Source: Methylobacter sp. | GTDB taxonomy: Bacteria > Pseudomonadota > Gammaproteobacteria > Methylococcales > Methylomonadaceae | NCBI GenBank assembly: GCA_026399025.1 | Contig: JAPLRU010000036.1 | Span: 1-47,218 of the forward strand | Reading direction: 5' to 3' | Length of the DNA stretch: 47,218 bases | Shown here: positions 27,958-46,073 of the stretch, in pieces | Layout of the letters: each line of letters starts with the position of its first letter | Numbering within the stretch: the first letter of the stretch is position 1 | The notes under the pieces: generated by a model | Told to the model about the DNA's origin: nothing | The model's input: only the letters and a program-made list of their open reading frames with translations | The model's database searches: none | Made by a program: the position numbers and the translations under genes

Positions 27958-28047
27958 CTCCTGTTGATCGCCCAATTAGCCGAACCGAACTAAATATGTT
28001 TTAATCTTGTAAGGGTTACATCTACACAACTTTTCGTAAATTTTCGC

Positions 28048-28392
28048 ATGATGTCGCATGATTTTAAAAAACTATCCGGCGTGGACTCACGCCTAAACGA
28101 CCGCTACCGGCGTCCGCTGAGTGAACACATGAAGTCAAGTGGAGGCCTGAATGCCGGGTTAAACGTGTTGCCCGACAAAATCAGCAGCTTTGCCGGCACT
28201 CAAGCAGCGGATGAACTGAGCGACTGTATCTGTTTGTCGAGTCGGCAAGGTTTTTGCCCGGGTCTTAGTGCATCCCATCAATCGAGAAGGCGATTCCGGT
28301 GGCATATTTTGCAAGCGGGTCAAGTCGGCTGGCCATCACCTCGAATCCTGTCAGCAGGAGTCCGCGAAGGCTATTGCCAAACCCCTTATTGA
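28048..28392 (+). pseudogene. Probable transposase remnant between fecI and fecR
   Basis: The frame begins DFKKLSGVDSRLNDRYRRPL and continues SEHMKSSGGLNAGLNVLP then SFAGTQAA, which recalls the N-terminus of IS4-family transposases (a short 'DxRLNxRY...LPxxxxSFAxTQAAxRF' region). After about residue 50 the similarity stops, and no DDE domain is present. The rest of the gap (27958-28442) holds no gene. I read it as a decayed insertion that split the usual fecI-fecR pair; the identification rests on memory of the family and is tentative. Confidence 0.4.
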
Positions 28393-28442
28393 CGAACCGC
28401 TAACTTCTGTTCGTTGGATACACTGTAGTAAAATAGTAAATC

Positions 28443-29420: not shown

Positions 29421-29477
29421 CTAATCATCAATTTTTTTCTCCGCGACTAAGGGTAAATCCATCGCGCCTCGTCGTAT

Positions 29478-29502
29478 GTCATGAAGACAATATTTTCATG
29501 AC
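29478..29502. promoter_or_regulatory. Dyad GTCATGAA-N9-TTCATGAC before TonB receptor 1
   Basis: The 8-bp arms at 29478-29485 and 29495-29502 are perfect inverted repeats. They sit just upstream of the ribosome binding site AGAGG (about 29507) and the ATG at 29521. It could be an operator or an mRNA hairpin in the leader. Confidence 0.35.
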
Positions 29503-29520
29503 CTAAAGAGGATTTACCTA

Positions 29521-31989
29521 ATGACGCTACCTATACGCCGGGTTTGTACAAAACGCGGACAAAAAATCATCGAGATAACCGGGCTGCTGGTATTGTTCAG
29601 TGCGGGACAAAACAGCTATGCCGGTGACGCTGCATCCGGGCAAACCATGCCATTCAACATCCCCGCGCAATCCTTATCGAGCGCATTAACCCGATTTTCC
29701 GCCGAAACCCGGCTGCAAGTGCTTTATGAAGGCGATGTAGCCGATAAACTGCAAGCGCCGGCGCTTAACGGCTCGTATACACCGGCACAAGCCTTGGAAA
29801 AATTGTTGAACGGCTCCGGGCTTAAGTCTCGGTACACGAATGACAAAACTATCACGATAGAAGCGCCGACCAATCAAAGTCCGCAGGGGCCGATTTCAAG
29901 CACTACTACGTTGAAAGCAGTGACGGTGACCGGAAAAGCCAAATACGATGCTACCGATCCGTATGACAGGCATTACGCTGCAACCAATACCACCTTTGCG
30001 ACCAAAACCGACACGCCGATCATGGAGACGCCGCTGAATATCCAGGTGCTGCCGAAAGCGGTACTTGATGACCAGCAAGCCATTAAGATGGATCAGGCCT
30101 TGAAATATGTCAGCGGCGTCACTACCGGCCAAGCTGCGGGCGGACTTACCGACCAGCCGACTATCCGTGGATTTTTTAACTACAACCTTTTTCGTAATGG
30201 TTTTCGTATCGATGCTTCGGGTCCGGAAGGCACGCGAAACATGGCGAACGTACAGAGTATAGAGGTACTTAAGGGGCCTGCCGCTATGCTCTATGGACGC
30301 GTCGAGCCCGGCGGCATGGTTAATATAGTCACTAAAAAGCCTTTGGATACCGACTATTATTCGGTTCAGCAACAATTCGGCTCTTTCGATTTATATCGCA
30401 CCAGTATCGATGCCACAGGGCCGATAACCGATAACAAGAACCTATTGTATCGAATGAATGTCGCTTATGAAAACAGCGGCTCGTTCCGGGAAAACGTGGA
30501 TTACGACAAAGTGTTCGTCGCGCCGGTTTTGCAATGGAATATCAGTTCACAGACGACAGCGCTGTTAGAGCTTGAGTATCGCAACGAAAGCAATGTTTAC
30601 GACCTTCACGCCAGGCCGTTAATCACCGATGGAACAAGGGCGGACGGTACTTGGATCAATCCGCGTTTAGCGGATATTCCGCGCGAGAGAAACTTGATGG
30701 AAGACAACCGCAATCATGTGGAAGACAAACTGATCGGCTTAAATCTTTCGCATAAATTTAATGATGCCTGGACCTTAACCGAACAGCTTAATATTCAACT
30801 ATTGGATAGGGATAGAATGGTGATGACGCCAGGCACACTGCTGGCCGATAAACGGACCTTGAATAGAACATTGCTGACCAGCGATTTTTTTACCAATAAC
30901 AGCTATTTTACCACGACCAATTTAACCGGCCATTTCGATACCTGGGGGCTGAAACATACGCTGTTGGTCGGGGGCGATTATTATCTTCAAGACATGAACT
31001 CCGTCGGCTACAGCAGCACCGCCGCGAGTACTATCGATATTTACAACCCCATCCATACCGGCAATCCACCGATCAATCCAACGACACGCGCCAACCAATC
31101 GTTTCATACGAACACGGATCTGTACGGCATCTATTTACAGGATCAAATCAAGCTGCCTTATAACGTCCATGTGATGGGAGGCTTCCGTTATCAGAATGTC
31201 GAACAGTACGATGTTTTTGCCAAAAAGGTAGGACAAAAAGCCGATGCGGTGACGCCACAGGTGGGTGTACTTTGGCAACCGATAAAATGGTTGAGTCTTT
31301 ACGGCAACTATGTGGAGAATTTTGGAACTACCAACGGTCTGGGGCAAGGCAATATATTTTTACCGCCGCAAACCGCACAGCAATGGGAAGGGGGCTTTAA
31401 AACCGCATTCTTCGATGACCGTTTAAGCACCACGGTTTCTTACTTCAACTTGACCAAACAGAACATTCCAACAACAGACCCTGCTAACCCGACTTACAGC
31501 ATAGCTGCCGGTGAGGCCCAGAGCCGGGGTGTGGAAATGGACATTAAAGGTGAGATTTTACCGGGATGGAACGGTATAGCCACTTATGCCTATACCGAAA
31601 CCGAGGTGCTCAAAGAAAACAACCCGAACAATATACCGGTCGGCAGCCGTTTACGGGGCATTCCCACGCATAGCTCCACATTATGGTCGACTTACGATTT
31701 CCAGAAAGATTATCTGCGCGGTTTCAAGGTGGGCGCCGGGGTGGAACTGGTCAGCAACAAAAAAGCAACCTTCGACAAAAATGATTTCAATTTTGCCGGT
31801 TTCGGTGTTGTCGATTTATTAGTCGGCTATACCCGGAATGTCGCTAAATCTAAGGTTACGCTGCAACTGAACGTCACCAACCTATTGGATAAGGAATATA
31901 CCCACGATGGTTTTGCCGGGCCCGGTCAAACTCGGGCTACCTGGGGTACGCCACGGTCTTTTATGGGATCGATAAAGGTCGAGTTTTAA
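29521..31989 (+). CDS. TonB-dependent siderophore receptor 1 with N-terminal signalling (STN) domain
   Basis: The 822-residue protein has a long signal sequence (hydrophobic core LLVLFSAGQNSYAGD) and a STN domain (about 45-118; FNIPAQSLSSALTRFSAETR, LNGSGLKSRYTNDKTITIE), then a TonB-box region (TLKAVTVTGKA), a plug (ETPLNIQVLPKAVLDDQ, LKGPAAMLYGRVEPGGMVNI) and a beta barrel ending in aromatic SIKVEF. Receptors of the FpvA/FecA type import ferric siderophores and signal through STN to FecR. The ligand cannot be told from sequence. The start follows AGAGG by about nine bases. It is downstream of fecR and upstream of a PepSY-TM gene, a typical iron-uptake set. Confidence 0.93.
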   Translation: MTLPIRRVCTKRGQKIIEITGLLVLFSAGQNSYAGDAASGQTMPFNIPAQSLSSALTRFSAETRLQVLYEGDVADKLQAPALNGSYTPAQALEKLLNGSGLKSRYTNDKTITIEAPTNQSPQGPISSTTTLKAVTVTGKAKYDATDPYDRHYAATNTTFATKTDTPIMETPLNIQVLPKAVLDDQQAIKMDQALKYVSGVTTGQAAGGLTDQPTIRGFFNYNLFRNGFRIDASGPEGTRNMANVQSIEVLKGPAAMLYGRVEPGGMVNIVTKKPLDTDYYSVQQQFGSFDLYRTSIDATGPITDNKNLLYRMNVAYENSGSFRENVDYDKVFVAPVLQWNISSQTTALLELEYRNESNVYDLHARPLITDGTRADGTWINPRLADIPRERNLMEDNRNHVEDKLIGLNLSHKFNDAWTLTEQLNIQLLDRDRMVMTPGTLLADKRTLNRTLLTSDFFTNNSYFTTTNLTGHFDTWGLKHTLLVGGDYYLQDMNSVGYSSTAASTIDIYNPIHTGNPPINPTTRANQSFHTNTDLYGIYLQDQIKLPYNVHVMGGFRYQNVEQYDVFAKKVGQKADAVTPQVGVLWQPIKWLSLYGNYVENFGTTNGLGQGNIFLPPQTAQQWEGGFKTAFFDDRLSTTVSYFNLTKQNIPTTDPANPTYSIAAGEAQSRGVEMDIKGEILPGWNGIATYAYTETEVLKENNPNNIPVGSRLRGIPTHSSTLWSTYDFQKDYLRGFKVGAGVELVSNKKATFDKNDFNFAGFGVVDLLVGYTRNVAKSKVTLQLNVTNLLDKEYTHDGFAGPGQTRATWGTPRSFMGSIKVEF

Positions 31990-32004
31990 CCGGTATGTCT
32001 TGAG

Positions 32005-32033
32005 GCAATGCCTGGGATTATTCCCGGCATTGC
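32005..32033 (+). terminator. Hairpin after TonB receptor 1
   Basis: GCAATGCC (32005-32012) pairs with GGCATTGC (32026-32033), with an additional GGG/CCC inner stem. It is followed by TTTA only, so if it terminates transcription it would be partial, leaving read-through to the PepSY gene. Confidence 0.4.
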
Positions 32034-32080
32034 TTTACGTCGCGTAACGCTATTGCCAACCATTAACCCGAAGAAAAACC

Positions 32081-33385
32081 ATGCACCAAGCTCTTGACGA
32101 TTTTCCGGCGCTGCCTCCGAAAACGGTAGCTAACACCGATACCCATCTGGCTAAACTCAAAGCCCGGCGTAAATTATGGCTGGATGTGCATTTATATCTC
32201 GGCCTGATTGTAGGTGCCGTATTGGTCGTAGTCGGCTTGACCGGCAGCTTTGCTGTTTTCTTTGTCGAATTACAGGAAGTTTTAAACCCGGAGTTGGCCG
32301 TTGTTGCCAGGCCGCCGGAAAATCAACAACAATTGCGCTCTTTGGATGACATCGTTGCCGCAGCGGAATCGGTCAAGCCGCAAGGCAGCCGTTTTGTTAA
32401 AGTTTTTTATCCCCGCAAGCCCGATATTGCCTATAAGTTTGTATATTTTGTCAGGGACGAAAACCTGGCGAATAACGGCGACGGCTATTACATTTTCGTC
32501 GATCCTTACACGGCTAAGGTCAATGGCCTACAGCTTTATTATCCCAAGGACAGATATTGGGGACGGCCTTTAGTCGGTTTTATCATGCAGCTGCACTGGT
32601 GTTTATTGCTGGGCAAAACCGGCGCCATTCTTAACGGTATTTTTGCGGCGTTTTCGATTATTTCAGTGTTGACCGGCCTGATCGTCTGGTGGCCGTTGAC
32701 CGGAAAATTCAAACAGGCGTTAACCTTCAAGCGCCACGCCAGTGCTGTGCGTTTCAACTTCGATCTGCATAAAACCGTCGGCTTTTATTCGGTCATCGTC
32801 TTGCTGCCGGTGTTGTTTTCCGGGGTTTATTTTAATTTGCCGGAGCAGGTCAATGTGCTGGTCAAATTGTTCTCGTCGACCGATAGGCCCAATGCCTTTA
32901 GCACTGTTCCGGCAGCGATTCACAGCGGTCCGCCGCAAGCGGGCCGGCAGCCGATCAGTGCTTCGGAAGTGGAAGACATTGTGCAGGAACGCTATCCCGC
33001 CGGTAAGTTATGGATGCTGAATGCGCCGAAAGACCGGGAGGACGTCTATACGGTAATGAAAAAAGACGTATCCGAAATAAGCCGATTTACCGGTTATCGC
33101 GATTTCGCCGTCGACCAATATAGCGGAGAGATACTCAAAGTTTACGACAGGGGTACCGGCAGCGTCGGCGATGTGTTTCTGGACTGGCAATGGCCGTTGC
33201 ACAGCGGCCACGCTTTCGGTTGGACGGGGCGGATGTTGGTATTTCTTTCCGGCTTGGCTTGCCCGGTATTGTATGTGACCGGGGTGATCCGCTGGCTGCA
33301 AAAACGACGCGCGAAACAAGCTATAAACACAGAGAAGCGCGCCTCAGGCACGCCAACATCCGCTGATGCTTCGTTCCGACCATGA
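32081..33385 (+). CDS. PepSY-associated transmembrane protein 1 (FoxB/PiuB-like reductase family)
   Basis: This is a 434-residue inner-membrane protein with four clear membrane segments (about 43-65, 185-208, 235-257 and 382-405) and a periplasmic PepSY-type region between helices 1 and 2 and after helix 3. Histidines at helix ends (LWLDVHLYLGL, QLHWCLLLGK, FDLHKTVGFYS, WPLHSGHAFGW) are conserved in the family and could bind heme. Members such as FoxB are linked to reductive release of iron from siderophores at the inner membrane. It sits 91 bases after a TonB receptor, and two paralogues lie in the window beside iron genes. Confidence 0.9.
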   Translation: MHQALDDFPALPPKTVANTDTHLAKLKARRKLWLDVHLYLGLIVGAVLVVVGLTGSFAVFFVELQEVLNPELAVVARPPENQQQLRSLDDIVAAAESVKPQGSRFVKVFYPRKPDIAYKFVYFVRDENLANNGDGYYIFVDPYTAKVNGLQLYYPKDRYWGRPLVGFIMQLHWCLLLGKTGAILNGIFAAFSIISVLTGLIVWWPLTGKFKQALTFKRHASAVRFNFDLHKTVGFYSVIVLLPVLFSGVYFNLPEQVNVLVKLFSSTDRPNAFSTVPAAIHSGPPQAGRQPISASEVEDIVQERYPAGKLWMLNAPKDREDVYTVMKKDVSEISRFTGYRDFAVDQYSGEILKVYDRGTGSVGDVFLDWQWPLHSGHAFGWTGRMLVFLSGLACPVLYVTGVIRWLQKRRAKQAINTEKRASGTPTSADASFRP

Positions 33386-34442: not shown

Positions 34443-35108
34443 ATGTCAAATATAGCAGGCAAGGCTTATGCGATGAATGTCATTTCACCGTTGAGGCCAT
34501 ATCTGACCTGGGTTAATAAACTTATATTTTGGTACGCCGCCAAAAAACCCAGCAACCTAACCGGTCTGATTACACTTTCATTGATACATTACGCACGCTG
34601 GGTCATTATCGATAGAGATAAGTTTCCGCACCTGGATCCGAAGCAGCCAAAGGAAGACTTAAGTTACAACTATATGTTGTTCTTTAGTAATTTCAACGGA
34701 AGCTGGGATCAATATGTCGATTCTTTCACCTTTGCGATTCCTGGCGGGCTGGACTTACTCTGGAAATGGACGGTCCGCTATCCCAAATCGGTCGCACTAA
34801 CCCCCTTTCATAACTACATCCAATACAACCAGATCGAAACCATTCATTACTACAACGCTTACCCATTGGCGGCTTCCAATGATGTCAAAAGCGCTAAATC
34901 CGTCAAATCCGCACTCATCAAATTCCAGCAGGACACGCAAAATGCAAGCGACGACGACTTCATGAAAAGCTACAACGCATTATTACGCGGATTGCAGCAT
35001 GATTTGGGCGATATGCATCCAACACCCATCGTCAGCATGTCGGCTTATCAGGTGCAAAAGCGGCAAAAATGGCACGAGAAAAACGATTTGCAACTAGGGG
35101 GGAAATAA
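34443..35108 (+). CDS. Unknown protein A, paralogue of the next gene; start of DyP/P450 cluster
   Basis: This 221-residue protein has no family I can name. It starts MSNIAGKAYAMNVISPLRPY after an AGAGGA site. Its mid part, RWVIIDRDKFPHLDP and NYMLFFSNFNGSWDQYVDSF, aligns with the second gene's CRFFVLDD and RYLVFSSNF segment, so the two are homologous. No signal peptide or convincing membrane helix is present. The repeated beta-strand-like blocks followed by D-x-Y could indicate a ferredoxin-like fold, the fold used by DyP peroxidases, but this is only an impression. It is the first gene of a tight unit with protein B and the DyP peroxidase. Confidence 0.65.
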   Translation: MSNIAGKAYAMNVISPLRPYLTWVNKLIFWYAAKKPSNLTGLITLSLIHYARWVIIDRDKFPHLDPKQPKEDLSYNYMLFFSNFNGSWDQYVDSFTFAIPGGLDLLWKWTVRYPKSVALTPFHNYIQYNQIETIHYYNAYPLAASNDVKSAKSVKSALIKFQQDTQNASDDDFMKSYNALLRGLQHDLGDMHPTPIVSMSAYQVQKRQKWHEKNDLQLGGK

Positions 35109-35110
35109 TC

Positions 35111-35815
35111 ATGGCAAGTAATATCAGTGGCAATGCCTACGCACTCACTATCCTGTCTCCGATTAAAAACGGCTTGCAAGATGAAACAGCCTATGCGGAT
35201 ATCGTCAGAAACCGTCTACAAGAATGGAATGCTGAAAATAACAGTCCTATGGCGCTAACGCCGGACACCTATCTTTGCCGTTTTTTCGTACTGGATGATG
35301 TTTACACGGAAACGCTGCCCGGCGCTAATGCCTGGGATACAGTCGTCGACTGGCTGCCCTTCGTGCCGAATTTTTTACGCCGCTGGGCGTGGCCGAAAGA
35401 AGACCATTTAAAATCGCGCTATCTGGTTTTTTCCAGCAATTTTTATTGTGGTCCGGAAGGCACTATTGACGCTTATCTACGCGCTATGTGGATTGCAATC
35501 GGCGATCGCATCAAAGAAATCTGGGGCTATTGCTACGGTTTTGAGAACGTTAACGACGCAGACCAGTTTATTGCCTACATGAAAAAATGCCAGCTTACGG
35601 CAACGCTTTTTTTTGTTGGCTCTACTGATGACCCACTGAATGAACAATTGAAAGCACTCTATCTGAAACAGGAGTTTGCTAAATTTGCCATCGATAATCA
35701 AGGGCTTGATAAAACTGCATTGAGGAATAATTTCCAGACATTCTTTGATCGCGTCCAGCCCGCCAACCTGTCCGCGCCGACATGGGCTGCGGGAAAATAT
35801 CGTTTAGAAGATTAG
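35111..35815 (+). CDS. Unknown protein B, paralogue of protein A
   Basis: The 234-residue protein starts at ATG 35111 (MASNISGNAYALTILSPIKN), directly after a G-rich ribosome site (AGGGGGGAA); an upstream in-frame ATG at 35069 lies inside protein A's gene and lacks one. It shares with protein A the N-terminal NI-G-AYA-SP signature, an R-[FW]-x-V-x-D strand and the SNF-x-G block (VFSSNFYCGPEGTIDAYL). No enzymatic motif is recognised. The gene lies 2 bases after protein A and 12 before the DyP gene, so all three should be made together. Confidence 0.65.
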   Translation: MASNISGNAYALTILSPIKNGLQDETAYADIVRNRLQEWNAENNSPMALTPDTYLCRFFVLDDVYTETLPGANAWDTVVDWLPFVPNFLRRWAWPKEDHLKSRYLVFSSNFYCGPEGTIDAYLRAMWIAIGDRIKEIWGYCYGFENVNDADQFIAYMKKCQLTATLFFVGSTDDPLNEQLKALYLKQEFAKFAIDNQGLDKTALRNNFQTFFDRVQPANLSAPTWAAGKYRLED

Positions 35816-35827
35816 GAGGATAACATT

Positions 35828-37411
35828 GTGACTAAGCAATTAGATTTATTGGATATTCAAGGCCACGTGCTCCGTGCTTACGGTCGCTTCCACTACCCGG
35901 TAGCCCGCTATATATTTTTGAATATCAAGGATGAATCCATAGGCAGGGATTTTGTCGGCGCGATTAGCAAAAGAGTGACGACAGCGGTTGAATGGGGTAG
36001 CGGCCCCGGACAAGTCGAGCAGCCCCCCTGGACGGTTAATATCGCGTTGACCTATCAGGGCCTGAAGCAACTGGGAATCCCCAGATCGTCGCTGATTGGC
36101 TTCTCGCCGGAATTTGTCAGCGGCATGAAAGAACGTAAGGACATACTGGGTGATGACGGCCCAAGCTCACCTGAACATTGGGATCCGATATGGCGCGAAA
36201 ACCGTGAAACCCGCGAAAAGGACGTACATATCTTTATCGCACTCAATGCACAGTTCTCAAAAGACTCCGATTTACTCGGGGAAAGTTACGACTGGTTGCT
36301 GGGCGTTATCAAAGAGCATCAAAAAGGTGTAGCGGTGCTGGGCGGCCATCGCGGCGATGACGGCGCGCTGCTGGATTATCAGGATGCCAAAATCGTGATG
36401 GAAAATGGCTTGCCGACCGCCAAGGAGCATTTCGGTTACACCGATGGCATTAGCGATCCCGTCTTCGAAGGCGTTCCTTATGATGCCGATCGCATCAATG
36501 GCCGCGGCAAGCAAATGGAGGACGGCTCATGGGCGCCTTTAGCTACCGGGGAATTTTTACTCGGACATATCGATGAAGCCAAGGAATATCCGCCGGCGCC
36601 CAATCCTATCCTGCTTTCACGCAATGGCACTTATATGGTGTACCGCAAACTGCATGAAAACGTCGCCACCTTTGAATCCTATCTGGACGAACATGGCAAA
36701 AAATTCCCTGGCGGCAAGGAGTTACTCGCAGCCAAGTTTGTGGGTCGCTGGCGCGACAACGGCGCGCCTTTAACCACGGCGCCCGATGCAGACAGCAAAG
36801 CCGAATTTGATAAAAAATTCAAGGAGGCGGAAGACAAGGATGATAAAAAGGCTATAGACGACTTGCTCTGTAACTTTACTTACGATAATGACATGAGTGG
36901 CGGCAAATGTCCGTTTAGCGCGCATATCCGCCGCATCAATCCGCGTGCTTCGCTGGAAATGATCGAGGGCGATAAGCCCGGTTCGTTAAAAATGAACCCA
37001 AAGGCATTTGACACGCCGGGCGCCTTGTCGAATAGACGTCGCTTACTGCGGCGTGGTTTGCCCTACGGAGAGGTCAAGGATCGCAGCAAAGATAACGGTA
37101 ACCATGGCATTATCATCATGATGGTCAATGCCGATATAAACCGGCAATTCGAATTCGTCCAGCAACAGTGGATTAATTACGGCAACGACTTCAGGGCGGG
37201 TAACGACAAGGAAATCATCCTGGGAAACCATTCGGCTAATGATAAATTTTCGAGTAAAGCTGTAATCCAGGTTGAACCGGACAGCGATGAGACTCCGTAT
37301 ATTTTGTCCAAAATCCCGCGTTTTGTAGAGACCCGGGGCGGCGATTATTTTTTCATACCGAGCATGACAGCCTTGAGAATGATTGCCCAGGGCGTGATCG
37401 ATCCAACCTAA
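35828..37411 (+). CDS. DyP-type heme peroxidase
   Basis: The 527-residue protein starts at GTG behind GGAGG. It shows the DyP signature GxxDG in HFGYTDGISDP (Asp206, the distal acid), the proximal heme ligand His366 in CPFSAHIRRINPR, and a distal arginine region (NRRRLLRRGLPYG). At over 500 residues it is longer than A/B-type DyPs; the extra length includes a charged insertion about 320-345 (KFKEAEDKDDKKAIDD), as in larger class C/D-like members. No Tat or Sec signal is seen, so it is cytoplasmic or packaged. DyPs oxidise dyes, phenols or lipids using hydrogen peroxide; here the natural substrate is unknown. Confidence 0.93.
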   Translation: MTKQLDLLDIQGHVLRAYGRFHYPVARYIFLNIKDESIGRDFVGAISKRVTTAVEWGSGPGQVEQPPWTVNIALTYQGLKQLGIPRSSLIGFSPEFVSGMKERKDILGDDGPSSPEHWDPIWRENRETREKDVHIFIALNAQFSKDSDLLGESYDWLLGVIKEHQKGVAVLGGHRGDDGALLDYQDAKIVMENGLPTAKEHFGYTDGISDPVFEGVPYDADRINGRGKQMEDGSWAPLATGEFLLGHIDEAKEYPPAPNPILLSRNGTYMVYRKLHENVATFESYLDEHGKKFPGGKELLAAKFVGRWRDNGAPLTTAPDADSKAEFDKKFKEAEDKDDKKAIDDLLCNFTYDNDMSGGKCPFSAHIRRINPRASLEMIEGDKPGSLKMNPKAFDTPGALSNRRRLLRRGLPYGEVKDRSKDNGNHGIIIMMVNADINRQFEFVQQQWINYGNDFRAGNDKEIILGNHSANDKFSSKAVIQVEPDSDETPYILSKIPRFVETRGGDYFFIPSMTALRMIAQGVIDPT

Positions 37412-37450
37412 ATTTATATTCGAATAAGCATCAATAACCGGATGCGATAC

Positions 37451-37481
37451 AGGGTGGGTTAGCAATCGTCTTACCCACCCT
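37451..37481. terminator. Hairpin between DyP and P450 genes
   Basis: AGGGTGGGT (37451-37459) and ACCCACCCT (37473-37481) are perfect arms. There is no T run after the stem, so it may be a processing or attenuating hairpin rather than a full terminator. Confidence 0.35.
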
Positions 37482-37566
37482 CACGATACCGTCCATACGC
37501 CACATTGATTTATCAAATAACCTGAGACTGGGTTAAGTCGCTTTTTAAATAAGACAGGAGAATAAA

Positions 37567-38781
37567 ATGGCTTCTAACACACAAGCTTCAATTACTACAA
37601 AAATTCAGGCATGGCTGCTTGCCAATCTGAATTTAGTCTTCAGTATATTGAGATGGGTCAAGCCGATAGCTGTGTATAAAAATGCTGCGCTCGTTACTCG
37701 ATTTGACCATGTTCAGGAAGTTTTATCGCATGATGATATTTTTCATGTCACCTATAAAGAGAAAATGGAAAAAGTCACATCAGGTGAAAACTTTTTCTTA
37801 GGCATGCAAAATACGCCCATTTATACGCGTGACGTTTCCAATATGAGACTGGCCGTGCGTCGAACCGACCTCCCCGAAATAATCACCCCGTTTGTTGATA
37901 ATTGCGCCGAAAAAATCATGGCTTCCGCGCAAGGACGAATTGACGTGCCCGCCGAGTTAAGCAGAGTCGTCCCCACGCGTCTGGTCGGCCATTACTTCGG
38001 CACGCCCGGCTGGGATGAAGAGGAGTTCGCCAATGCCGCTACCTCAATGTTTCAATATCTGTTTTATCCCGATGATCCCGAAGTAGAAAAAACCGCATTA
38101 GCGGCGGCTGCGAAATCGCGTGACTATCTCGATGATTTTATTGTACAAAGGCAAAAAAATCGTCGACAACACGACGATGTCCTTGAGCGTTGTCTGCAAA
38201 TGCAGGATGCCGATATGCCCGGCATGAGTAACCTGGATATCCGTAATAACTTTATCGGCTTGATTATTGGCGCCATTCCCACAACATCCAAATGCGTTGT
38301 GCTTGTTCTCGATTATCTGTTGTCTCATCCTGATTTGTTAGCTCAAGCCCAACAAGCTGCCCGTGCAGATGACGACGCCCTGCTGACTCAATTTATGCAG
38401 GAAACTTTACGCTTTAATTCTTTTTCCCCTGCAATCTCACGACTTGCAGCAGAAGATTACGTAGTGGGACGCGGGTCGTGGCGAGCCACCAAAATACCCA
38501 AGGGTACCAAGGTGATAGCGGCGACTCAATCGGCCATGATGGATTGTCTCCAGCTGAAATCTCCCAGTCAATTTCGACTTGACCGGCCCGATTACCAATA
38601 CATGCACTTTGGTTTTGGATTACATACCTGCTTTGGACAATATATCAACCGGGTGCAAATACCGCATATACTCAAAGCGGTGTTGAAACGCCAGGGATTG
38701 CGACGCGCATCCGGTCCTGAAGGTCAAGTCGAGTCCGTTGGGCCTTTCCCCGTGCATTTGGTACTTGAATTCGATGCCTAA
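37567..38781 (+). CDS. Cytochrome P450 with an unusual I-helix
   Basis: The 404-residue soluble P450 has ExxR (Glu279-Thr-Leu-Arg282), a heme-ligand loop FGFGLHTCFGQYIN (Cys355) and a K-helix/meander region. The oxygen-activation segment of the I helix reads IIGAIPTTSK (about 233-242): proline stands where P450 monooxygenases carry the acid of the acid-alcohol pair. Lack of that acid is typical of P450s that use peroxides or hydroperoxides without redox partners, and no ferredoxin or reductase gene lies nearby. It lies 155 bases downstream of the DyP gene with an AGGAG ribosome site, and probably acts with it. Confidence 0.9.
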   Translation: MASNTQASITTKIQAWLLANLNLVFSILRWVKPIAVYKNAALVTRFDHVQEVLSHDDIFHVTYKEKMEKVTSGENFFLGMQNTPIYTRDVSNMRLAVRRTDLPEIITPFVDNCAEKIMASAQGRIDVPAELSRVVPTRLVGHYFGTPGWDEEEFANAATSMFQYLFYPDDPEVEKTALAAAAKSRDYLDDFIVQRQKNRRQHDDVLERCLQMQDADMPGMSNLDIRNNFIGLIIGAIPTTSKCVVLVLDYLLSHPDLLAQAQQAARADDDALLTQFMQETLRFNSFSPAISRLAAEDYVVGRGSWRATKIPKGTKVIAATQSAMMDCLQLKSPSQFRLDRPDYQYMHFGFGLHTCFGQYINRVQIPHILKAVLKRQGLRRASGPEGQVESVGPFPVHLVLEFDA

Positions 38782-38864: not shown

Positions 38865-39410
38865 TCATGAAAAGTGCTCCGCTTCCGCCAATAATTTAGC
38901 TTGCTGGTCTTTTGCTGACAAGGAGGGCTGGCCTTGAATCGGCCATTGGATGCCGATAGCGGGGTCGTTCCAGGCAATGCTGCGCTCGAATTCGGGCGCC
39001 CAGTAGTCGGTAGTTTTGTAGAGAAACTCTGCGGTTTCCGAAATAACCACAAAGCCATGCGCGAAGCCTTCAGGTACCCACAACATGCGCTTGTTTTCGG
39101 CCGAAAGTTCCAACCCAACAGACTGCCCGAAGCTAGGCGAGCTACGCCGTATGTCTACGGCCACATCAAAAACCGCGCCTTGCACCACGCGCACCAGCTT
39201 GCCTTGCGGCTGCCGGATTTGATAATGCAGGCCGCGCAGTACATTTTTGGCCGAACGGCTGTGGTTGTCTTGCACGAAATCGACATCACGCCCGGTGAGC
39301 TCGGCGAACCGACGGCGGTTAAAGCTTTCAAAAAAGAAGCCGCGCTCGTCGCCGAACACCTTGGGTTCGATAATCAGCACTTCGGGAATAGCGGTGGCGA
39401 TCACTTTCAC
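38865..39410 (-). CDS. rfbC: dTDP-4-dehydrorhamnose 3,5-epimerase
   Basis: The start is GTG at 39410 with AGGAG eight bases upstream, giving 182 residues, the usual RmlC/RfbC length; the longer frame to 39479 runs through a hairpin repeat. Motifs include VFGDERGFFFESFN, FVQDNHSRSAKNVLRGLHYQ (catalytic His region), KLVRVVQGAVFDVAVD, WVPEGFAHGFVV and TDYWAPEFERSI. It epimerises dTDP-4-keto-6-deoxyglucose on the way to dTDP-L-rhamnose. The usual partners rmlA, rmlB and rmlD are not adjacent, so it is an orphan gene here, on the strand opposite to its neighbours. Confidence 0.95.
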   Translation of the reverse strand: MKVIATAIPEVLIIEPKVFGDERGFFFESFNRRRFAELTGRDVDFVQDNHSRSAKNVLRGLHYQIRQPQGKLVRVVQGAVFDVAVDIRRSSPSFGQSVGLELSAENKRMLWVPEGFAHGFVVISETAEFLYKTTDYWAPEFERSIAWNDPAIGIQWPIQGQPSLSAKDQQAKLLAEAEHFS

Positions 39411-39442
39411 GAGGACTCTCCTTCTTTCAACAAGCGCCTGAG

Positions 39443-39581
39443 CAGGTCGGGGTTTGCAACCCCGACCTGAACGTTTCAAAGCAAAGCAACTTTATAATTT
39501 CACAAACGTTTCGGATGGGTTTACAAAACCCGTCCGGCATTCTGCTAGGACAGATAACATCCCTTCAAGGGATGTTATCTG
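39443..39581. repeat. Three consecutive hairpin repeats between rfbC and PepSY gene 2
   Basis: Three unrelated palindromes lie in a row: CAGGTCGGGGTT (39443-39454) with 39458-39469; CGGATGGGTTT (39512-39522) with 39526-39536 (one mismatch); and CAGATAACATCCCTT (39551-39565) with 39567-39581 around a single base. None encodes protein. The first overlaps the upstream leader of rfbC, and the third lies 75 bases before the PepSY start. Confidence 0.7.
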
Positions 39582-39655
39582 TAAATCGTCCCACTTTAAA
39601 TTGGAAGCCCAATATTGAGCTTCAGCCTTTTGTATCATGCGGCAAAACTATTACT

Positions 39656-40837
39656 ATGGATCTAACTTTAAAATCCCGTCGTAAATTCTGGCTCAAGGTG
39701 CATTTGTACCTTGGACTGTTTGCCGGAGCGGTATTCGTAGTGATTGGCCTCACCGGCAGCTTGCTGGCTTTTGAATTTCCGTTGGATGAACTGCTCAACC
39801 CCAAGCTGCTGACTGTTCCGGTCGATCAGGAAAATAAAAGCTATTTGCCGCTGGATACTATTGTCGCGGCGGGCGTGAAAGCATTGCCTCCTGACGGCAA
39901 AGCAGGCGCTATTGCTTTTCCCAGGCATTCCGGCCTGGCTTTTGAGCTGTGGTTTAATCAAGCCTCACTGTATGGAGACAACACTGAAATCCATCAGCTA
40001 TTTATCAACCCATACACTGGAGAAGTGACCGGGCAACGCCTGTTAACGGATTTCGAGCACATCTGGCGCGACCCGTTTAAGGATTTTATTCTGCGCTTGC
40101 ACTATACCTTGGGTTTAGGCTTAGGCGGAATGAATGTCGTCGGCTTTATCGGTTTAGGGCTATTGTTTTCGGTATTAACCGGTTTGATTTTATGGTGGCC
40201 GAGTCCCGGCAAGCTTAGAAACGCGCTGACCATTAAACGCAACGCCAGTCCCGAACGCTTCAACTTCGACTTACACAAAACCTTCGGTTTTTATAGCGCG
40301 GTCATTCTGTTGTTTTTGATACTGTCCGGCGTTTATTTGATTTTTCCGGAGTATGGTCGCGGCTTGGTGGGAATATTTTCACCGGTAACGGAAGATGCTT
40401 CGATATGCCGAAGTACCGTACCCAACGGCGCTAAAACACCGATCAGTCTTGATGAGGTTAAGGCGATTAGCGATGCGCGTTTCCCGGATGGCGAGTATCG
40501 ATTCATCGGTTTTCCCAAGAATGAACAGGGTGTTTATTTTGTGGGCAAACCGGAGATCGACGAGATCAATCCAAAAGGCTCTTACCGCCGCCTTTGGATC
40601 GACCAATACAGCGGCGAAATTCTCCATGCGCGGGAGCGAGGTAGCCGTACTGCGGGCGACATCTTTGTACAATGGCTTTACCCGCTACACACCGGCGAAG
40701 CGTTTGGTTTTATCGGGCAGCTTATTATTTTATTTGCCGGATTGATGCCATTGATACTTTATGTGACCGGTGTTATCCGCTGGCTACAAAAACGCAAAGC
40801 GCGCAAGTTAAAGTCGGTCCGGCAATCTCTAGGATAG
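39656..40837 (+). CDS. PepSY-associated transmembrane protein 2
   Basis: The internal ATG at 39656 (MDLTLKSRRKFWLKVHLYLG) fits the family start; the frame upstream is hairpin sequence. The 393 residues have four membrane segments and the conserved histidine pattern (KVHLYLGL, LRLHYTLGL, FDLHKTFGFYS, YPLHTGEAFGF). It is a paralogue of the protein at 32081-33385, with a shorter N-terminus. It precedes the second sigma gene by 125 bases, so in this locus the PepSY gene is first, not last. Confidence 0.88.
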   Translation: MDLTLKSRRKFWLKVHLYLGLFAGAVFVVIGLTGSLLAFEFPLDELLNPKLLTVPVDQENKSYLPLDTIVAAGVKALPPDGKAGAIAFPRHSGLAFELWFNQASLYGDNTEIHQLFINPYTGEVTGQRLLTDFEHIWRDPFKDFILRLHYTLGLGLGGMNVVGFIGLGLLFSVLTGLILWWPSPGKLRNALTIKRNASPERFNFDLHKTFGFYSAVILLFLILSGVYLIFPEYGRGLVGIFSPVTEDASICRSTVPNGAKTPISLDEVKAISDARFPDGEYRFIGFPKNEQGVYFVGKPEIDEINPKGSYRRLWIDQYSGEILHARERGSRTAGDIFVQWLYPLHTGEAFGFIGQLIILFAGLMPLILYVTGVIRWLQKRKARKLKSVRQSLG

Positions 40838-40872
40838 TCTTTTTCGACAACACACATAAATCCAAAAACTGT

Positions 40873-40904
40873 GTCATATGCCCTATTTAACTATGGCATA
40901 TGAC
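40873..40904. promoter_or_regulatory. Putative operator: GTCATATG dyad upstream of fecI-like gene 2
   Basis: GTCATATGCC (40873-40882) and GGCATATGAC (40895-40904) are perfect inverted half sites separated by 12 bases, matching in sequence and spacing the dyad before the first fecI-like gene. It ends 58 bases before the ATG at 40963, a suitable position for control of initiation. Confidence 0.55.
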
Positions 40905-40962
40905 GCAATCTTCTTCATTGTAATTATCAAGTCATTGATGTTTTTTGTTTATTTAAGCAGGC

Positions 40963-41535
40963 ATGAGTATTGCTTTAATATCCACCACCACAGCTGATCA
41001 ATCCGGTCTTACCCAACCGATGTCCAAACCCAAACACAGCTTCCTGCATGACCTGTTCCTGAAACATGCCCACGAGGTTAGCGCCTTTATTCGCGGACGC
41101 TGGCCCAGAGAACAAGATGTTGACGACATTATGCAGGAATCGTTTTTGCGCTTGTCGCAAGTCCCCAATCCCGAAACTATTCTTAACCCCCGAGCCTTCC
41201 TGTTCACAACGGCCTCCAATATGGCCGTGGATCGCCATCGTCGGCGAAAAACCCGCGAGCGTTATAGTGAGCCGGACCCGGACTTTGAAAATTTAGCGAA
41301 CGATCATTTGTCTCCAGAGCGTCATTCGGAAGCACAGCAAGCGCTTGAGCGCTTTAGCGAATGGCTGGACGAATTGCCGGAACTGCATCGACATGCCTTT
41401 GTTTTATACCGCATTGAAGGTTGCGCGCATGCCGAAATCGCTGTGCGCCTTGGCATTTCCGTGAGCACTTCCGAGCGCTATGTCAAATTCGCCATGCAGC
41501 ATATCGCTGTGCGTCTTAGTGCTATTCAAACTTGA
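40963..41535 (+). CDS. fecI: FecI-like ECF sigma factor 2
   Basis: The 190-residue protein has sigma region 2 (FLKHAHEVSAFIRGRWP, EQDVDDIMQESFLRLSQVPN, NPRAFLFTTASNMAVDRHRR; about 30-95) and region 4 (LPELHRHAFVLYRIEGCAHA, EIAVRLGISVSTSERYVKFA; about 138-180). The first 20 residues are extra; an internal ATG (MSKPKHSF) at about 41020 is an alternative start. The fecR-like gene follows 91 bases downstream. It is clearly diverged from the first FecI-like protein in the window, so not a recent duplicate. Confidence 0.9.
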   Translation: MSIALISTTTADQSGLTQPMSKPKHSFLHDLFLKHAHEVSAFIRGRWPREQDVDDIMQESFLRLSQVPNPETILNPRAFLFTTASNMAVDRHRRRKTRERYSEPDPDFENLANDHLSPERHSEAQQALERFSEWLDELPELHRHAFVLYRIEGCAHAEIAVRLGISVSTSERYVKFAMQHIAVRLSAIQT

Positions 41536-41626
41536 ATTGTGACGAAAATTAAGGCCTCGAACGTCTATAGTATTATTACGCTAAAATGAACCGACTTAAA
41601 CGAGACCGACAAGGCTATAAATCAGC

Positions 41627-42598
41627 GTGAAAACCATCCCGTCCTCTCACGATTCAGTGCAGGCACAGGCTATTGACTGGTTGCTTCGCATTCGTTCGGA
41701 AAACTGCACCGAGGCGGAACGCAGCGCATTCCGTCTCTGGTTGGAAGAAAGTCCGGGCCACCGTCAGGCCTATGAAACGGCGCAGGCGCAATGGGAATGG
41801 ATGGAGCCGTTTAAAACGATGGCTTTTCCCGCACGGGATGCGGCATTACGCTATAGAGGCAAATCATCCCGCCGTTGGGTTAAATATAGTGCGGCAGCTT
41901 CGCTGTTGCTGGCTTTGGGATTGTCCGCTTTTATGCCGAACGGCTGGGTCGGCATTCCGCATAGCTATATTGCCGAAAAAGGCGGCCGTCACATCGTCAC
42001 CCTGGCCGACGGCTCCAGCGTCGAGCTCAATACCGACAGCGAGGTGCGTGTTCATTTCAATCATTGGCGGCGCAACGTCGAAATGATCAAAGGCGAAGCT
42101 TTTTTCACAGTGACCCACAATGCAGAACGCCCGTTCGAAGTACGCGCCGGTAGCGGTCTGATCCGCGACATCGGCACCGCGTTTGAAGTCTATATCAAAC
42201 CCGAACAAGTCCTCGTTGCGGTTCAGGAAGGTATCGTCGAAGTGCAAGCGCTCAAAAAACGCGAACTGACGGCCGGACAACAACTGGCCTTTAGCAACAG
42301 CGGCGAATTTCAAGCGCTGCAAGGTCAGGATGTCGCCGGTCTCACCGCCTGGCGGCAAGGCAACTTGGTGTTCCGCGACCGCCGTCTCGACGACGTACTG
42401 GCCGAAGTAGGACGATACCATGACACCCGCATCCGCTTGCAGAATGAAAGTTTGGGCAAACTGCGGGTTAGCGGTACATTTCATACCGCCGAACTGGGCG
42501 ACACGCTTAACGCTATCGCCACCATTCTCCCGGTTAGCATTGATCACGTCGGCGAACATGAAATCGTGTTGAAATCGGCGGCATCCGGTTACAGATAG
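41627..42598 (+). CDS. fecR: FecR-like anti-sigma/transmembrane regulator 2
   Basis: The 323-residue protein starts at GTG. It has the N-terminal DUF4880-like part (AIDWLLRIRSENCTEAERSA, WLEESPGHRQAYE), a membrane helix (AAASLLLALGLSAFM, about 90-105), a periplasmic FecR domain (HIVTLADGSSVELNTDSEVR, VEMIKGEAFFTVTH, IRDIGTAFEVY) and a C-terminal DUF4974-like domain (LDDVLAEVGRYHDTRIRLQN). It should pair with sigma factor 2 and TonB receptor 2, from which it is now separated by an opposite-strand hicAB remnant. Confidence 0.92.
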   Translation: MKTIPSSHDSVQAQAIDWLLRIRSENCTEAERSAFRLWLEESPGHRQAYETAQAQWEWMEPFKTMAFPARDAALRYRGKSSRRWVKYSAAASLLLALGLSAFMPNGWVGIPHSYIAEKGGRHIVTLADGSSVELNTDSEVRVHFNHWRRNVEMIKGEAFFTVTHNAERPFEVRAGSGLIRDIGTAFEVYIKPEQVLVAVQEGIVEVQALKKRELTAGQQLAFSNSGEFQALQGQDVAGLTAWRQGNLVFRDRRLDDVLAEVGRYHDTRIRLQNESLGKLRVSGTFHTAELGDTLNAIATILPVSIDHVGEHEIVLKSAASGYR

Positions 42599-42630
42599 GC
42601 AGGCTTTAGCTTTTTAGATTGAATCGGCAA

Positions 42631-42852
42631 TCAAAGCAGGTTCAGAAACTCTTCGGCGGTCATACCCGCGTCACGAATAAGAGCGCGTAGCGTACCGATT
42701 GAAAGTTCCTTGTGTTAAGGGACTGATAAGTTAACGCGTACACCGGATTTAACCAAGACACGATGGCTTTAGAGCTGTCCGACTGTTTGCCAACCTTCTT
42801 TTTCAAAAGCTCCGACCGCTTCCTTGCCGGAAATATTGCCCGGCTTCCCCAT
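42631..42852 (-). pseudogene. hicA: hicA toxin pseudogene with two in-frame stops
   Basis: Reading from ATG 42852 gives MGKPGNISGKEAVGAFEKEG then WQTVGQL, TAA, SHRVLVKSGVRVNLSVP, TAA, HKELSIGTLRALIRD and AGMTAEEFLNLL, ending at TGA 42631. All segments are in one frame, and together they are a complete HicA (about 73 residues, including the GSHxxL/V region with the catalytic His). Two TAA codons, one at the usual Gln of SVPQHKEL, interrupt it. The mRNA interferase is therefore inactive unless read through. The gene starts 3 bases after the hicB stop. Confidence 0.75.
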
Positions 42853-42855
42853 ATC

Positions 42856-43077
42856 CTAAACAGTTACCATGATCTGTGCTTGTTTCTGAGAGCCTTCTTG
42901 TTGCAAAGCCAAAATCGCTTTTTGATCCTCGGCCCACAACCAAGCGGTAATTGCTTCTTTGATATTAACCAAGACTTCTTCCTGATCTTTGCCCTGCGAA
43001 ATGGAGCCCGGCAATGCCGGACATTCCGCAACGATCCAACCGTCTTCTGCCGATTCGAGTGTTATATGGAAAATCAT
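42856..43077 (-). CDS. hicB: HicB-family antitoxin
   Basis: The 73-residue protein has the HicB partial-RNase-H fold sequence (FHITLESAEDGWIVAECPAL, PGSISQGKDQEEVLVNIKEA, ITAWLWAEDQKAIL) and no DNA-binding tail, like short HicB forms. Its normal job is to neutralise HicA. The toxin gene directly downstream is broken by stop codons, so this is an orphan antitoxin. The start follows AGAGGG. The pair lies opposite to and between fecR and the receptor gene of iron locus 2. Confidence 0.85.
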   Translation of the reverse strand: MIFHITLESAEDGWIVAECPALPGSISQGKDQEEVLVNIKEAITAWLWAEDQKAILALQQEGSQKQAQIMVTV

Positions 43078-43269
43078 GATGTCCCTCTGTGTTAACTAAA
43101 CGTTATTTTCGAAGAAGCATATTCGCCAGGTAAAAATAGATCAAGAACTATCCAGACAGAAGCGGCACAAAAACAATATCCAAAAATAAATTCAAATTCC
43201 TGACGATTTTTTAAAAGTCATGCGTCTATCCCTTATGAACATAAAATTCAACAAAGGGGAAACGAGAAA

Positions 43270-45654
43270 ATGACATTAAAAATGAAACGGCTGAGCGCGG
43301 CTATTTTGGCGACCATGGCAAGTGCGGTTTATGCAGAAGAGCAAAAACACCACTTCGACATTCCGGCGCAATCATTGGGCTCGGCACTGCAAACACTCGC
43401 CGCGCAATCCGGTGCGCCGATGCTGTATGCCGAACAGACGGCGGCGGGCAAGCAAAGTTCGCGTTTGGTCGGCGACTACAGCACCGCTGAAGCGGCGGAT
43501 AAGCTGCTTGCGGGTAGCGGCCTTGTTCACGGCGTTGCTGCAAATGGCACGGTGACGGTTAAGCCCGCGTCAAACACAGATCCCACTACATTAAAGCCAA
43601 TGACGGTTGTCGGTAAAAACAAACTCGATCCGAATGACCCTTATAACCAAGATTACTCAGTTGCGAATTCCAGCACCGCCACCAAAACAGATATGCCAAT
43701 TATGTTAACGCCCGCATCGATACAAGTGGTGCCTAAGGCGGTGATGAACGATCAGCAGAATATCAATATCCTAGATTCGCTTAATAAAAATGTTAGCGGT
43801 GTATCGGCTAGGACTGGCGGAAATCTTTTGTACGATAACTTTATTATTCGCGGGTTCAACACCGGGCTTGCCGGAGCCGCTTATCGTAACGGCCTGCTGT
43901 CGCCGACCAATTTTTACGAACCAGCCAATATTGAACAACTTGAAGTGTTGAAAGGGCCGGCTGCCGCACTCTATGGTCGGGCCGAACCGGGCGGCATGGT
44001 GAACATTACCACCAAAAAACCGTTGGCGACGCCTTACTATGCGTTGCAACAGCAGTTCGGCTCTTACGATCTTTATCGCACTACTATCGATGCTACAGGC
44101 CCGATTGATGACGCTAAAATGGTGTTGTACCGATTCAATGCAGCCTATCTCGACAAAGGATCATTCAAGGATATGGTCGGCAGTGACCGTGTTTTTATTG
44201 CGCCCACGTTAAGTTGGCGGCCGAATAATGAATTTGAGGCTAATGCCGAGCTGGAATACAAGCGCGATAACGTTACCATGGATGCTGGACTGCCGGTGCT
44301 AAACGGCGCCAACCGGCCTACCAAGTTGCCATCTAATACTTTTCTAGGGGATTCGGCAGCGAATTTGGCTGAACAGGAAAGTGTGCTGATCGGATACGAT
44401 TGGACATTTCATTTCAATGACGACTGGAAACTGACCAACCGTTTTCTATGGGAAGACTGGAATCTCAGGCAGTTTAGTGTAAATCCAGTCAGCTTAAGGG
44501 CGGACAATCGAACCTTGAACAGAGGGTTATCCTACGGTCAAAGAGCGTTTGAAACGTATGCGACTAATCTGGATTTGAACGGGAAATTTGATTTGTTTGG
44601 TACCAAGCATGATGTTTTGATAGGAGGTGATTTTAACGATACCGTATGGCCAGGCGATACTACCTTTCAAGGTGCAACAGCCGCTGTGCCGACTATCGAT
44701 ATTTACAATCCGGTCTATGGGCGAGTCAATCAAGCGGCGCTTGATCTACTGCCCAAAAACAATTTCCGGGTAAAGCATGATCAATGGTTCGGCGTTTATT
44801 TCCAGGATCAAATTACGCTTTGGGATAAGCTGCATATAATGGGTGGTGGCCGTTACGACTGGGTACTAAGCGGCAGCACCATTACTACTGGCTCTTTGCA
44901 ACAGGCAAAAAATGCCTTCAGCGATATAGAGACGCAAAACTTCAGTCCGCGAGCCGGGTTGTTGTATCAGCCATGGACATGGTTATCCTTGTATGGCAAC
45001 TATACCCAATCCTTTAGCAGCAACGCCGGTTCACAGGCAACCGGCAGTCAATTCGCTCCGCAAGTCGGCGAACAATTCGAGGCCGGTTTTAAAACCGAGT
45101 TCTTCGATAAGCGCTTATCGACCTCCTTGGCTTTCTACCATTTGACCAAAAGTAATACCCTGACACCTGACCCGAAAAATTTCGGGTTCAGTCTTGCGAT
45201 AGGCGAGGCACGTAGCCAGGGGATTGAAGTCGATATTAAAGGTCGGCTGACAGAGAAGCTAAATCTGGTTACCACTTATGCCTATGCCGATACGCGGGTC
45301 ACCAAGGATAATTCCGGGATTGTGGGTAATAAATTGTCGAACGTGCCAGAGCATCAGGCTAGCGTTTGGGGTACTTACCAGTTCACCGAACGGTTCAGGG
45401 TGGGGCTTGGTGAGGTGATGGTCGGCAGTCGGCAAGGCGATGCCGCCAATACTTTCCTATTGCCGGGCTACGCAAGGACAGACGCGATGGCGGCTTATAC
45501 TCATCCAATCGGTAAAACCCGGTTGACTACTCAGTTAAATATCAACAACCTGCTGAATAAGGATTACTTTAGCGATAGCTCCAACGGCGGTCGTCTCTCG
45601 GTGCTTTATGGAGAGCCGATTTCGGTAATGGGCTCGTTGAAGTTGGAATACTAA
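43270..45654 (+). CDS. TonB-dependent siderophore receptor 2 with STN domain
   Basis: The 794-residue protein has a signal peptide (MKRLSAAILATMASAVYAEE), an STN domain (about 26-95; FDIPAQSLGSALQTLAAQSG), a TonB-box region (TLKPMTVVGKN), a plug (LTPASIQVVPKAVMNDQQN, LKGPAAALYGRAEPGGMVNI) and a barrel ending SLKLEY. It shares the family organisation of receptor 1, with long conserved blocks at the plug (EPGGMVNI-TKKPL) and the strand after it (QQFGSYDLYRTTIDATGPI), but differs in extracellular loops. It imports a ferric siderophore and signals to FecR. A ribosome site (AAAGGGG) is at about 43254. Confidence 0.93.
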   Translation: MTLKMKRLSAAILATMASAVYAEEQKHHFDIPAQSLGSALQTLAAQSGAPMLYAEQTAAGKQSSRLVGDYSTAEAADKLLAGSGLVHGVAANGTVTVKPASNTDPTTLKPMTVVGKNKLDPNDPYNQDYSVANSSTATKTDMPIMLTPASIQVVPKAVMNDQQNINILDSLNKNVSGVSARTGGNLLYDNFIIRGFNTGLAGAAYRNGLLSPTNFYEPANIEQLEVLKGPAAALYGRAEPGGMVNITTKKPLATPYYALQQQFGSYDLYRTTIDATGPIDDAKMVLYRFNAAYLDKGSFKDMVGSDRVFIAPTLSWRPNNEFEANAELEYKRDNVTMDAGLPVLNGANRPTKLPSNTFLGDSAANLAEQESVLIGYDWTFHFNDDWKLTNRFLWEDWNLRQFSVNPVSLRADNRTLNRGLSYGQRAFETYATNLDLNGKFDLFGTKHDVLIGGDFNDTVWPGDTTFQGATAAVPTIDIYNPVYGRVNQAALDLLPKNNFRVKHDQWFGVYFQDQITLWDKLHIMGGGRYDWVLSGSTITTGSLQQAKNAFSDIETQNFSPRAGLLYQPWTWLSLYGNYTQSFSSNAGSQATGSQFAPQVGEQFEAGFKTEFFDKRLSTSLAFYHLTKSNTLTPDPKNFGFSLAIGEARSQGIEVDIKGRLTEKLNLVTTYAYADTRVTKDNSGIVGNKLSNVPEHQASVWGTYQFTERFRVGLGEVMVGSRQGDAANTFLLPGYARTDAMAAYTHPIGKTRLTTQLNINNLLNKDYFSDSSNGGRLSVLYGEPISVMGSLKLEY

Positions 45655-45660
45655 CAAGTA

Positions 45661-45797
45661 GGCCGCAGGTCAATGCCGTTAAGTTAAGACTTGTTCCGTT
45701 CGCCCTGTCGAAGGGAGAGTGGAGCAAGTCGTTAAGCCGCTCATGGTTCGACAGGCCCACCACGAACGGCTTAACTTAACGGCATTGGGCCGCAGGT
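45661..45797. mobile_element. MITE-like element of family 4 with 17-bp TIRs and 10-bp direct repeats
   Basis: AATGCCGTTAAGTTAAG (45672-45688) is exactly mirrored at 45770-45786. GGCCGCAGGT is directly repeated outside at 45661-45670 and 45788-45797. The ends match those of the element at 22998-23174, while the interiors are unrelated. Confidence 0.75.
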
Positions 45798-46056: not shown

Positions 46057-46073
46057 AGCCTAAAAACAAAACG

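Follow-up and report, generated by a model that had tools for sequence, protein, structure and literature searches.

Described protein chains with two heme enzymes join a cyclooxygenase-type peroxidase to a cytochrome P450, as far as the accessible text of the reports goes (PMC13049297, PMC5919972, PMC4420034), and the P450 partners in fungi are described there as isomerising hydroperoxides without redox partners (PMC13049297; PMC5919972). P450s of the CYP74 kind and catalase-related heme proteins both convert fatty acid hydroperoxides, according to the accessible part of PMC10813956. Here a locus of Methylobacter sp. is described, in which genes for two paralogous proteins, A and B, and a DyP-type peroxidase are followed by a P450 gene. 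It lies in contig JAPLRU010000036.1 of assembly GCA_026399025.1, and "the window" denotes the whole stretch analysed, positions 1 to 47,218 of the forward strand. No description of a DyP-P450 fusion, operon or genomic context was found in the open-licence literature, which was covered mostly at listing level.

The four genes are predicted, with a probability of roughly one half, to encode a scaffolded, peroxide-fed two-heme oxidation unit, acting most likely on lipid (hydro)peroxides. The elements of the locus are:

34443-35108, + strand: gene A, a 221 aa module containing the blocks IHYARW and SNFNGSW, akin to the C-terminal module of the two-module proteins described below
35111-35815, + strand: gene B, a 234 aa paralogue of A, akin to the N-terminal module of the two-module proteins
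35828-37411, + strand: DyP-type peroxidase, 527 aa, GTG start, GYTDG motif at 203, His366, Arg439
37451-37481, + strand: hairpin in the DyP-P450 gap, 12-nt arms, 92% complementary
37567-38781, + strand: cytochrome P450, 404 aa, Cys355 ligand, I-helix GAIPTT (Pro replaces the acid)

Gaps of 2 bases separate A from B, 12 bases B from DyP and 155 bases DyP from the P450. The reading frames, the close packing of A, B and DyP and the P450 as the next gene are all as given in an initial annotation of the stretch.

The A-B-DyP unit and its P450 partner

A scan of genome contigs with A gave at least 558 relatives, of which the best 80 loci were kept. B is present in 80/80 of these and DyP in 77/80; the three loci without DyP are cut by a contig end, L030 and L050 inside B and L097 shortly after B. 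The organisms with A comprise Methylococcaceae, Oxalobacteraceae, Nitrosomonas, Thiodictyon, Acidobacteria, Bacteroidota, a cyanobacterium, a planctomycete and others. Of 398 sampled genomes of the phylum, counting that of the window, 27 carry A. Each of these also has DyP, either encoded on the same strand no more than about 1.2 kb away or as part of one open reading frame with A. A DyP match in the absence of A occurs in another six genomes and is strong in two of them (G399, G317). A wide occurrence of A and B without DyP, named in the initial annotation as a result that would tell against its proposal, was not seen at the examined loci and genomes wherever the contig is long enough. A, B and DyP are a fixed unit. 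No relatives of DyP or A were found on viral contigs, within the coverage of two scans out of eight.

The window DyP matches DyP_N (PF21105) with 31.2 bits at a cut-off of 27.5, and it stays under the cut-off for Dyp_perox_C (PF20628, 19.1 against 20) and TIGR01413 (85.6 against 100.5). Dyp_perox_N (PF04261) has no match in the window genome, because the window DyP matches PF21105 instead. Residues G203-x-x-D206-G207, H366 and R439, which we take to be the GxxDG motif, the proximal His and the distal Arg, are invariant in 26/26 aligned relatives. By profile and motif the protein is thus a DyP-type peroxidase, and peroxidase activity is predicted. Its 527 aa include insertions relative to the 445 aa protein 8re3, in agreement with its first description as a long DyP. 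No stretch exceeds the hydrophobicity threshold and the N-terminus is not hydrophobic.

The link of the P450 to this unit is most direct in single open reading frames of 1411-1535 aa, inspected at L165, L166, L167 and L180, that run from P450 through A/B-type modules to DyP; further fusions, found by shared open frames, are in G321 and G347. Pfam detects P450 and DyP domains only in the two fused chains scanned (L165, L180). L168 (392-5152) may encode a further P450-DyP chain: its 1587 aa comprise an A-like module and DyP, then a stretch with weak P450 similarity and, at the end, a GDSL hydrolase-like part that scores under the cut-off. Among the 398 genomes, close kin of the window P450 are found in 18 at 79 bits or more (its own included), after which scores drop to 65. 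These lie beside or are fused to A-DyP in 15 of the 18 genomes, a number that includes G398 and G410, where the P450 is one gene further away. The chance expectation for co-occurrence of A and the P450 is 27 x 18 / 398 = 1.2 (hypergeometric 2e-17, kinship ignored). Thus the fused chains and the 15/18 adjacency show that the P450 belongs with A-B-DyP, and the link is real.

Unrelated heme genes that became adjacent by chance might explain the 155-base gap with its hairpin and the absence of a P450 from 59/80 A loci, but this reading is contradicted by the fusions and by the adjacency and is extremely improbable. The initial view of the four genes as one cluster is borne out by the same two observations, but it does not extend to those 59 loci, 26 of which have a catalase-like protein within 7 kb.

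A glutathione S-transferase (GST) relative is present in 15/21 P450 loci and in 0/59 of the others, and in L020 a GST-like part, weak and under Pfam cut-offs, is fused to the P450. Upstream of the fused P450-A/B-DyP genes, L165 (4836-6608) and L167 (4453-6111) encode tetratricopeptide repeat (TPR) proteins, one of them containing a guanylate cyclase domain.

The P450 I-helix and the catalase-like alternative

The window P450 matches PF00067 (E 3.5e-24) and has intact heme ligands: Cys355 and Arg282 are invariant in 20/20 rows, and Glu279 is kept in at least 90%. The Cys, the ExxR motif and the I-helix Thr are all retained, and the I-helix GAIPTT has Pro at the acid position, as the annotation of an acid-less P450 had it. 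The window genome also has a second, ordinary-looking P450. The 38 linked P450s compared here, 34 of which have Pro in place of the acid, are 34 from the main alignment together with L017, L018, L032 and L171; they do not include the fragments L055 and L068, which do not cover the region, or L168, which has Pro; L018 is partly aligned, and L171 and L186 are divergent there. Three unlinked kin have Glu, and an acid is present in 11 of 13 ordinary P450s, the latter being next-best hits and not a random draw.

A tree of 51 P450s places the linked P450s and the three unlinked kin in one 38-row clade (one row duplicates the window) with support 100/100, and the 13 ordinary P450s fall outside it. 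Members of the clade with Asp, Glu or Ala cluster together (94/97, not starred), which is compatible with either direction of change between Pro and acid. Peroxide-driven turnover of the window P450 is predicted from these features. One of the unlinked Glu-type P450s of the clade (L213, 6678-10109) adjoins a RoxA-like cytochrome. At L055 (13271-13654), DyP is followed only by a 128 aa P450 fragment, with the contig continuing, and the gene is perhaps decayed.

Many of the loci without a P450 have a catalase-like protein. The 80 loci comprise 21 with P450, 26 with a catalase-like protein within 7 kb (24 by clustering, 27 anywhere in the locus), 33 with neither and 0 with both. Among 108 loci the corresponding numbers are 38, 36, 34 with neither in reach and, again, 0 with both. 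The catalase-like hidden Markov model (HMM) was built from 11 proteins of loci counted with that same HMM. L168 was assigned to the P450 type by hand (P450-like stretch of 9.7 bits), and the remaining 37/38 P450 rows rest on the HMM. The 108 loci are the rows of a DyP tree, taken from 112 loci with A and DyP after leaving out L013-L015 (repeats of L032, L031 and L040) and L079 (short DyP). This is a quick tree, with 54/105 inner branches starred, 29 open and several long branches, and on it the fewest switches between P450 and catalase-like partner number 10. Methanotroph bins of the P450 type (window, L023, L031, L032) and of the catalase type (L026, L040) are neighbours in this tree. The non-overlap has a naive probability of 2e-9, with kinship ignored. 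P450 and catalase-like protein never occur together in these loci, an exclusion that is striking, not proven, and the catalase-like protein is apparently an exchangeable counterpart of the P450.

Asn is missing from 32/36 catalase-like partners at the alignment column that we take to be the distal Asn of catalase. Proteins of about 400 aa detected by the HMM, which adjoin DyP at L022 (5686-6912), L173 (10833-12026) and L175 (6850-8118), have Asn at the distal His column, and the L022 protein has no Pfam match. A search for catalase-like or GST relatives elsewhere in the window genome was without match, an empty answer that alone shows nothing.

These data bear on two other explanations. If the P450 were an ordinary O2-dependent monooxygenase served by the general cellular ferredoxin, with DyP and A/B merely clearing leaked peroxide, its conserved Cys, ExxR and Thr and the Asp in the I-helix of three linked relatives would fit, and redox partners need not adjoin a P450. 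However, the prevalence of Pro in linked P450s beside Glu in the three unlinked kin, the fused L165 and L180 chains in which Pfam finds just P450 and DyP, and the catalase-like proteins, which need no reductase, at loci where the P450 is missing make this explanation unlikely. The unit might instead serve repair or detoxification, reducing H2O2 or lipid hydroperoxides within the membrane and yielding no specific product. This explanation is in keeping with the catalase-like partners, with the hydrophobic segments of relatives (see below) and with carriers that include methane and ammonia oxidisers and other bacteria. It is given a similarly low likelihood: the spread is patchy, with A in 11 of 151 relatives and in none of the 20 same-genus genomes among those listed, most catalase-like partners do not have the putative distal Asn, and a P450 would be unusual as a detoxifier.

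A and B as modules of a putative platform

A and B are paralogous (blastp E 2e-6; hhalign probability 97.8), and neither has a Pfam, NCBIfam or PADLOC match up to E 1; A has a single weak PHROGs match (E 0.17). Their description as a pair of paralogues of no familiar family therefore stands. In the distant relatives L019-L022, one two-module protein of 432-462 aa occupies the place of A and B before DyP. Its C-terminal module is A-like and its N-terminal module is B-like (hhalign 97.6 against B, 85.5 against A). Thus A and B match its two modules, split and in reversed order. One or two hydrophobic segments lie between the modules in 4/4 two-module proteins and in 3/4 fused proteins scanned by the Kyte-Doolittle method, a crude scan that flags the P450 I-helix too; the fused L166 is outside it. 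B of L017 (7711-8745) and of L216 (6837-7835) likewise contains a hydrophobic insertion made up of one or two segments.

The AlphaFold2 model of B has a pLDDT (predicted local distance difference test score) of 87.3 and a ferredoxin-like beta-alpha-beta-beta-alpha order, whereas that of A is poor (66.8). Neither model has a match at E 0.001 in a fold search of the PDB. The best Foldseek match of B, 4-methylmuconolactone methylisomerase, is not significant (E 0.097), and the order of elements in B fits a dimeric alpha+beta barrel; Foldseek gave nothing for the model of A. Of the two folds initially considered for A and B, the ferredoxin-like one is thus suggested for B only, by the order of elements and without a significant fold match. 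The DyP-like one was dropped, as hhalign found no relation to the DyP profile (probability below 1).

Because relatives carry A and B as modules in one chain, and fused proteins place such modules between P450 and DyP, the two proteins may be the halves of a bridging platform, a more definite form of the binding or scaffold role first given to them. In this arrangement, the A/B platform would keep DyP and another heme enzyme side by side, on or close to the membrane. That other enzyme, the acid-less P450 in the window and the catalase-like protein elsewhere, would need no redox partners to split the O-O bond of its substrate, a (hydro)peroxide and most likely a lipid one. DyP would use or remove peroxide at the same place and would oxidise the product or a released radical. 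A complex in the window organism, its membrane position, the use of peroxide, the lipid substrate and the order of steps are predicted parts of this scheme. The initial proposal is partly supported: the genes belong together, A/B-type modules stand between the heme enzymes in fused chains and the P450 has no acid at the usual position.

Several observations weigh against the two-heme oxidation unit. At 34/108 loci neither partner is in reach. Asp is kept in three linked P450s (L020, L095, L102), and one has Ala (L198). The P450/catalase exclusion does not reach significance in a phylogeny-aware sign test with about four informative pairs (p from 0.0625 to 0.5, median 0.125). Thr stands before the distal His in 1/34 catalase-like rows (L048), and 6/34 rows do not have that His. 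The window A and B themselves have no segment over the threshold of the crude hydrophobicity scan. The lipid-enzyme neighbours described below come from hand-picked scanned proteins, and alpha/beta hydrolase matches number 3 in the even tally of neighbours. In addition, the window genome has no match to an animal-type heme peroxidase (PF03098) or a lipoxygenase as a source of lipid hydroperoxide, in searches for which the control genomes are silent too.

Substrate, surroundings and comparison with known systems

The reading in terms of hydroperoxides rests mainly on the chemistry that CYP74 and catalase-related proteins share, according to the partial source cited at the outset. Some loci add enzymes of lipid chemistry. 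At L217, A, B, DyP, patatin, P450 and FadL genes follow in series, and L218, with the same genus code, has open reading frames of matching sizes. A Tle1-like hydrolase is present at L019 and L219, and an animal-type heme peroxidase together with a catalase-like protein is found at L019, L021 and L174. In a tally of 124 immediate neighbours from 63 loci (reading frames called mechanically, 25 of 193 families shown), catalase has 11 matches, TPR models have up to 6 and alpha/beta hydrolase and GST models have 3. The lipid chemistry of the initial annotation is in keeping with patatin, FadL, Tle1-like and GDSL neighbours at a few loci, but such enzymes are not prominent among immediate neighbours; a lipid substrate is suggested by special cases and not by rule.

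A unit that makes a specialised metabolite other than a lipid, for example from a terpenoid or aromatic precursor, would be in line with the best NCBIfam matches of the P450, which are natural-product P450s, all far below cut-offs. Against this, no biosynthetic neighbours are common across groups, although close kin share neighbours, and, with catalase-like, TPR, GST and hydrolase families set aside, named families reach at most 3/124 immediate neighbours each. This explanation is considered still less probable than that of an ordinary monooxygenase.

The window locus is flanked by two loci with ECF (extracytoplasmic function) sigma factor, FecR, TonB receptor and PepSY genes (27457-33385 and 39653-47084), and an rfbC-like epimerase gene (38865-39455, - strand) lies between the P450 and the second of these. 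The iron-uptake surroundings had been thought to fit the iron demand of heme enzymes. The 25 commonest of the 193 neighbour families include none for iron uptake, and the link was not retained: because neighbours at other loci differ, the flanks look incidental. Farther upstream, a UbiA prenyltransferase gene adjoins a Glycos_transf_3 family gene with a 4-base end overlap (23514-25423).

Within the locus, the mechanically called reading frame of B begins at 35069; the ATG at 35111 is taken as its start, and the sequence upstream of it is AGGGGGGAAA. The GTG start of DyP (35828) is preceded by AGGAGG and the P450 start (37567) by AGGAGA. A ribosome-binding stretch is plausible for each of A, B and DyP. 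The hairpin has no T run downstream. It was rejected as a repeat element, as a pattern search found a single copy in the genome and a differently written pattern matched none.

In a broader and more tentative reading, which is somewhat doubtful, A and B would be an undescribed family of bridging modules that defines a widespread bacterial oxylipin-type machine: a membrane-held platform with DyP and an exchangeable O-O-splitting heme enzyme, either acid-less P450 or catalase-like, sometimes in one chain. To our knowledge, the intracellular role of DyP peroxidases is largely open, and such a machine would assign a definite physiological function to the present group of DyPs. Because this group has constant partners, occurs in natural fusions and apparently pairs with either of two heme enzymes, its role is open to direct test. 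A and B would be the founding members of a new protein family. DyP-P450 pairs are available ready-made in the fused proteins, and the Pro-Thr I-helix leads to a clear prediction on peroxide use.

Compared with solved DyP-type peroxidases, the window DyP is closest to those of the C/D kind (8re3, 8re2, the ancestral D-type 7anv and Alr1585, 5c2i) and keeps their catalytic residues, but here A and B are constant partners and a P450 is fused in some relatives. The P450 differs from the CYP152 peroxygenases: it gives only a weak match to the CypC profile (NF053744, E 0.059, 11.9 bits against 600), far short of the cut-off, and its I-helix retains the Thr, with Pro instead of the acid. Catalase-related allene oxide synthase and hydroperoxide lyase of corals and Acaryochloris perform CYP74 reactions (PMC10813956, in its accessible part), and a catalase-like protein is likewise found here where the P450 is absent. 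However, their hallmark is a Thr-His connection, by the title of a study cited in PMC10813956, whereas Thr precedes the distal His in a single catalase-like row of the present loci.

The fungal dioxygenase-P450 fusions (linoleate diol synthase, allene oxide synthase; PpoA, CYP6001) and oomycete CYP5619 resemble the present unit in having a heme peroxidase-fold enzyme and a P450 in one chain. Their partner is of the peroxidase-cyclooxygenase type, whereas here it is DyP, and A/B-type modules are not named for them in the accessible parts of the reports. In 9S-AOS, a 9S-allene oxide synthase, the I-helix reads V-P-x-T in the available text, with Val facing the iron and Pro after that position. 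In the register comparison made in the present analysis, Pro of the window P450 lies two residues earlier, at the acid position, and a 9S-AOS-like I-helix was rejected as having similar letters in another register. Thus the unit is not a member of the dioxygenase-P450 fusions, because its partner is DyP and its I-helix register differs, but it may work like the fungal dual-heme chains.

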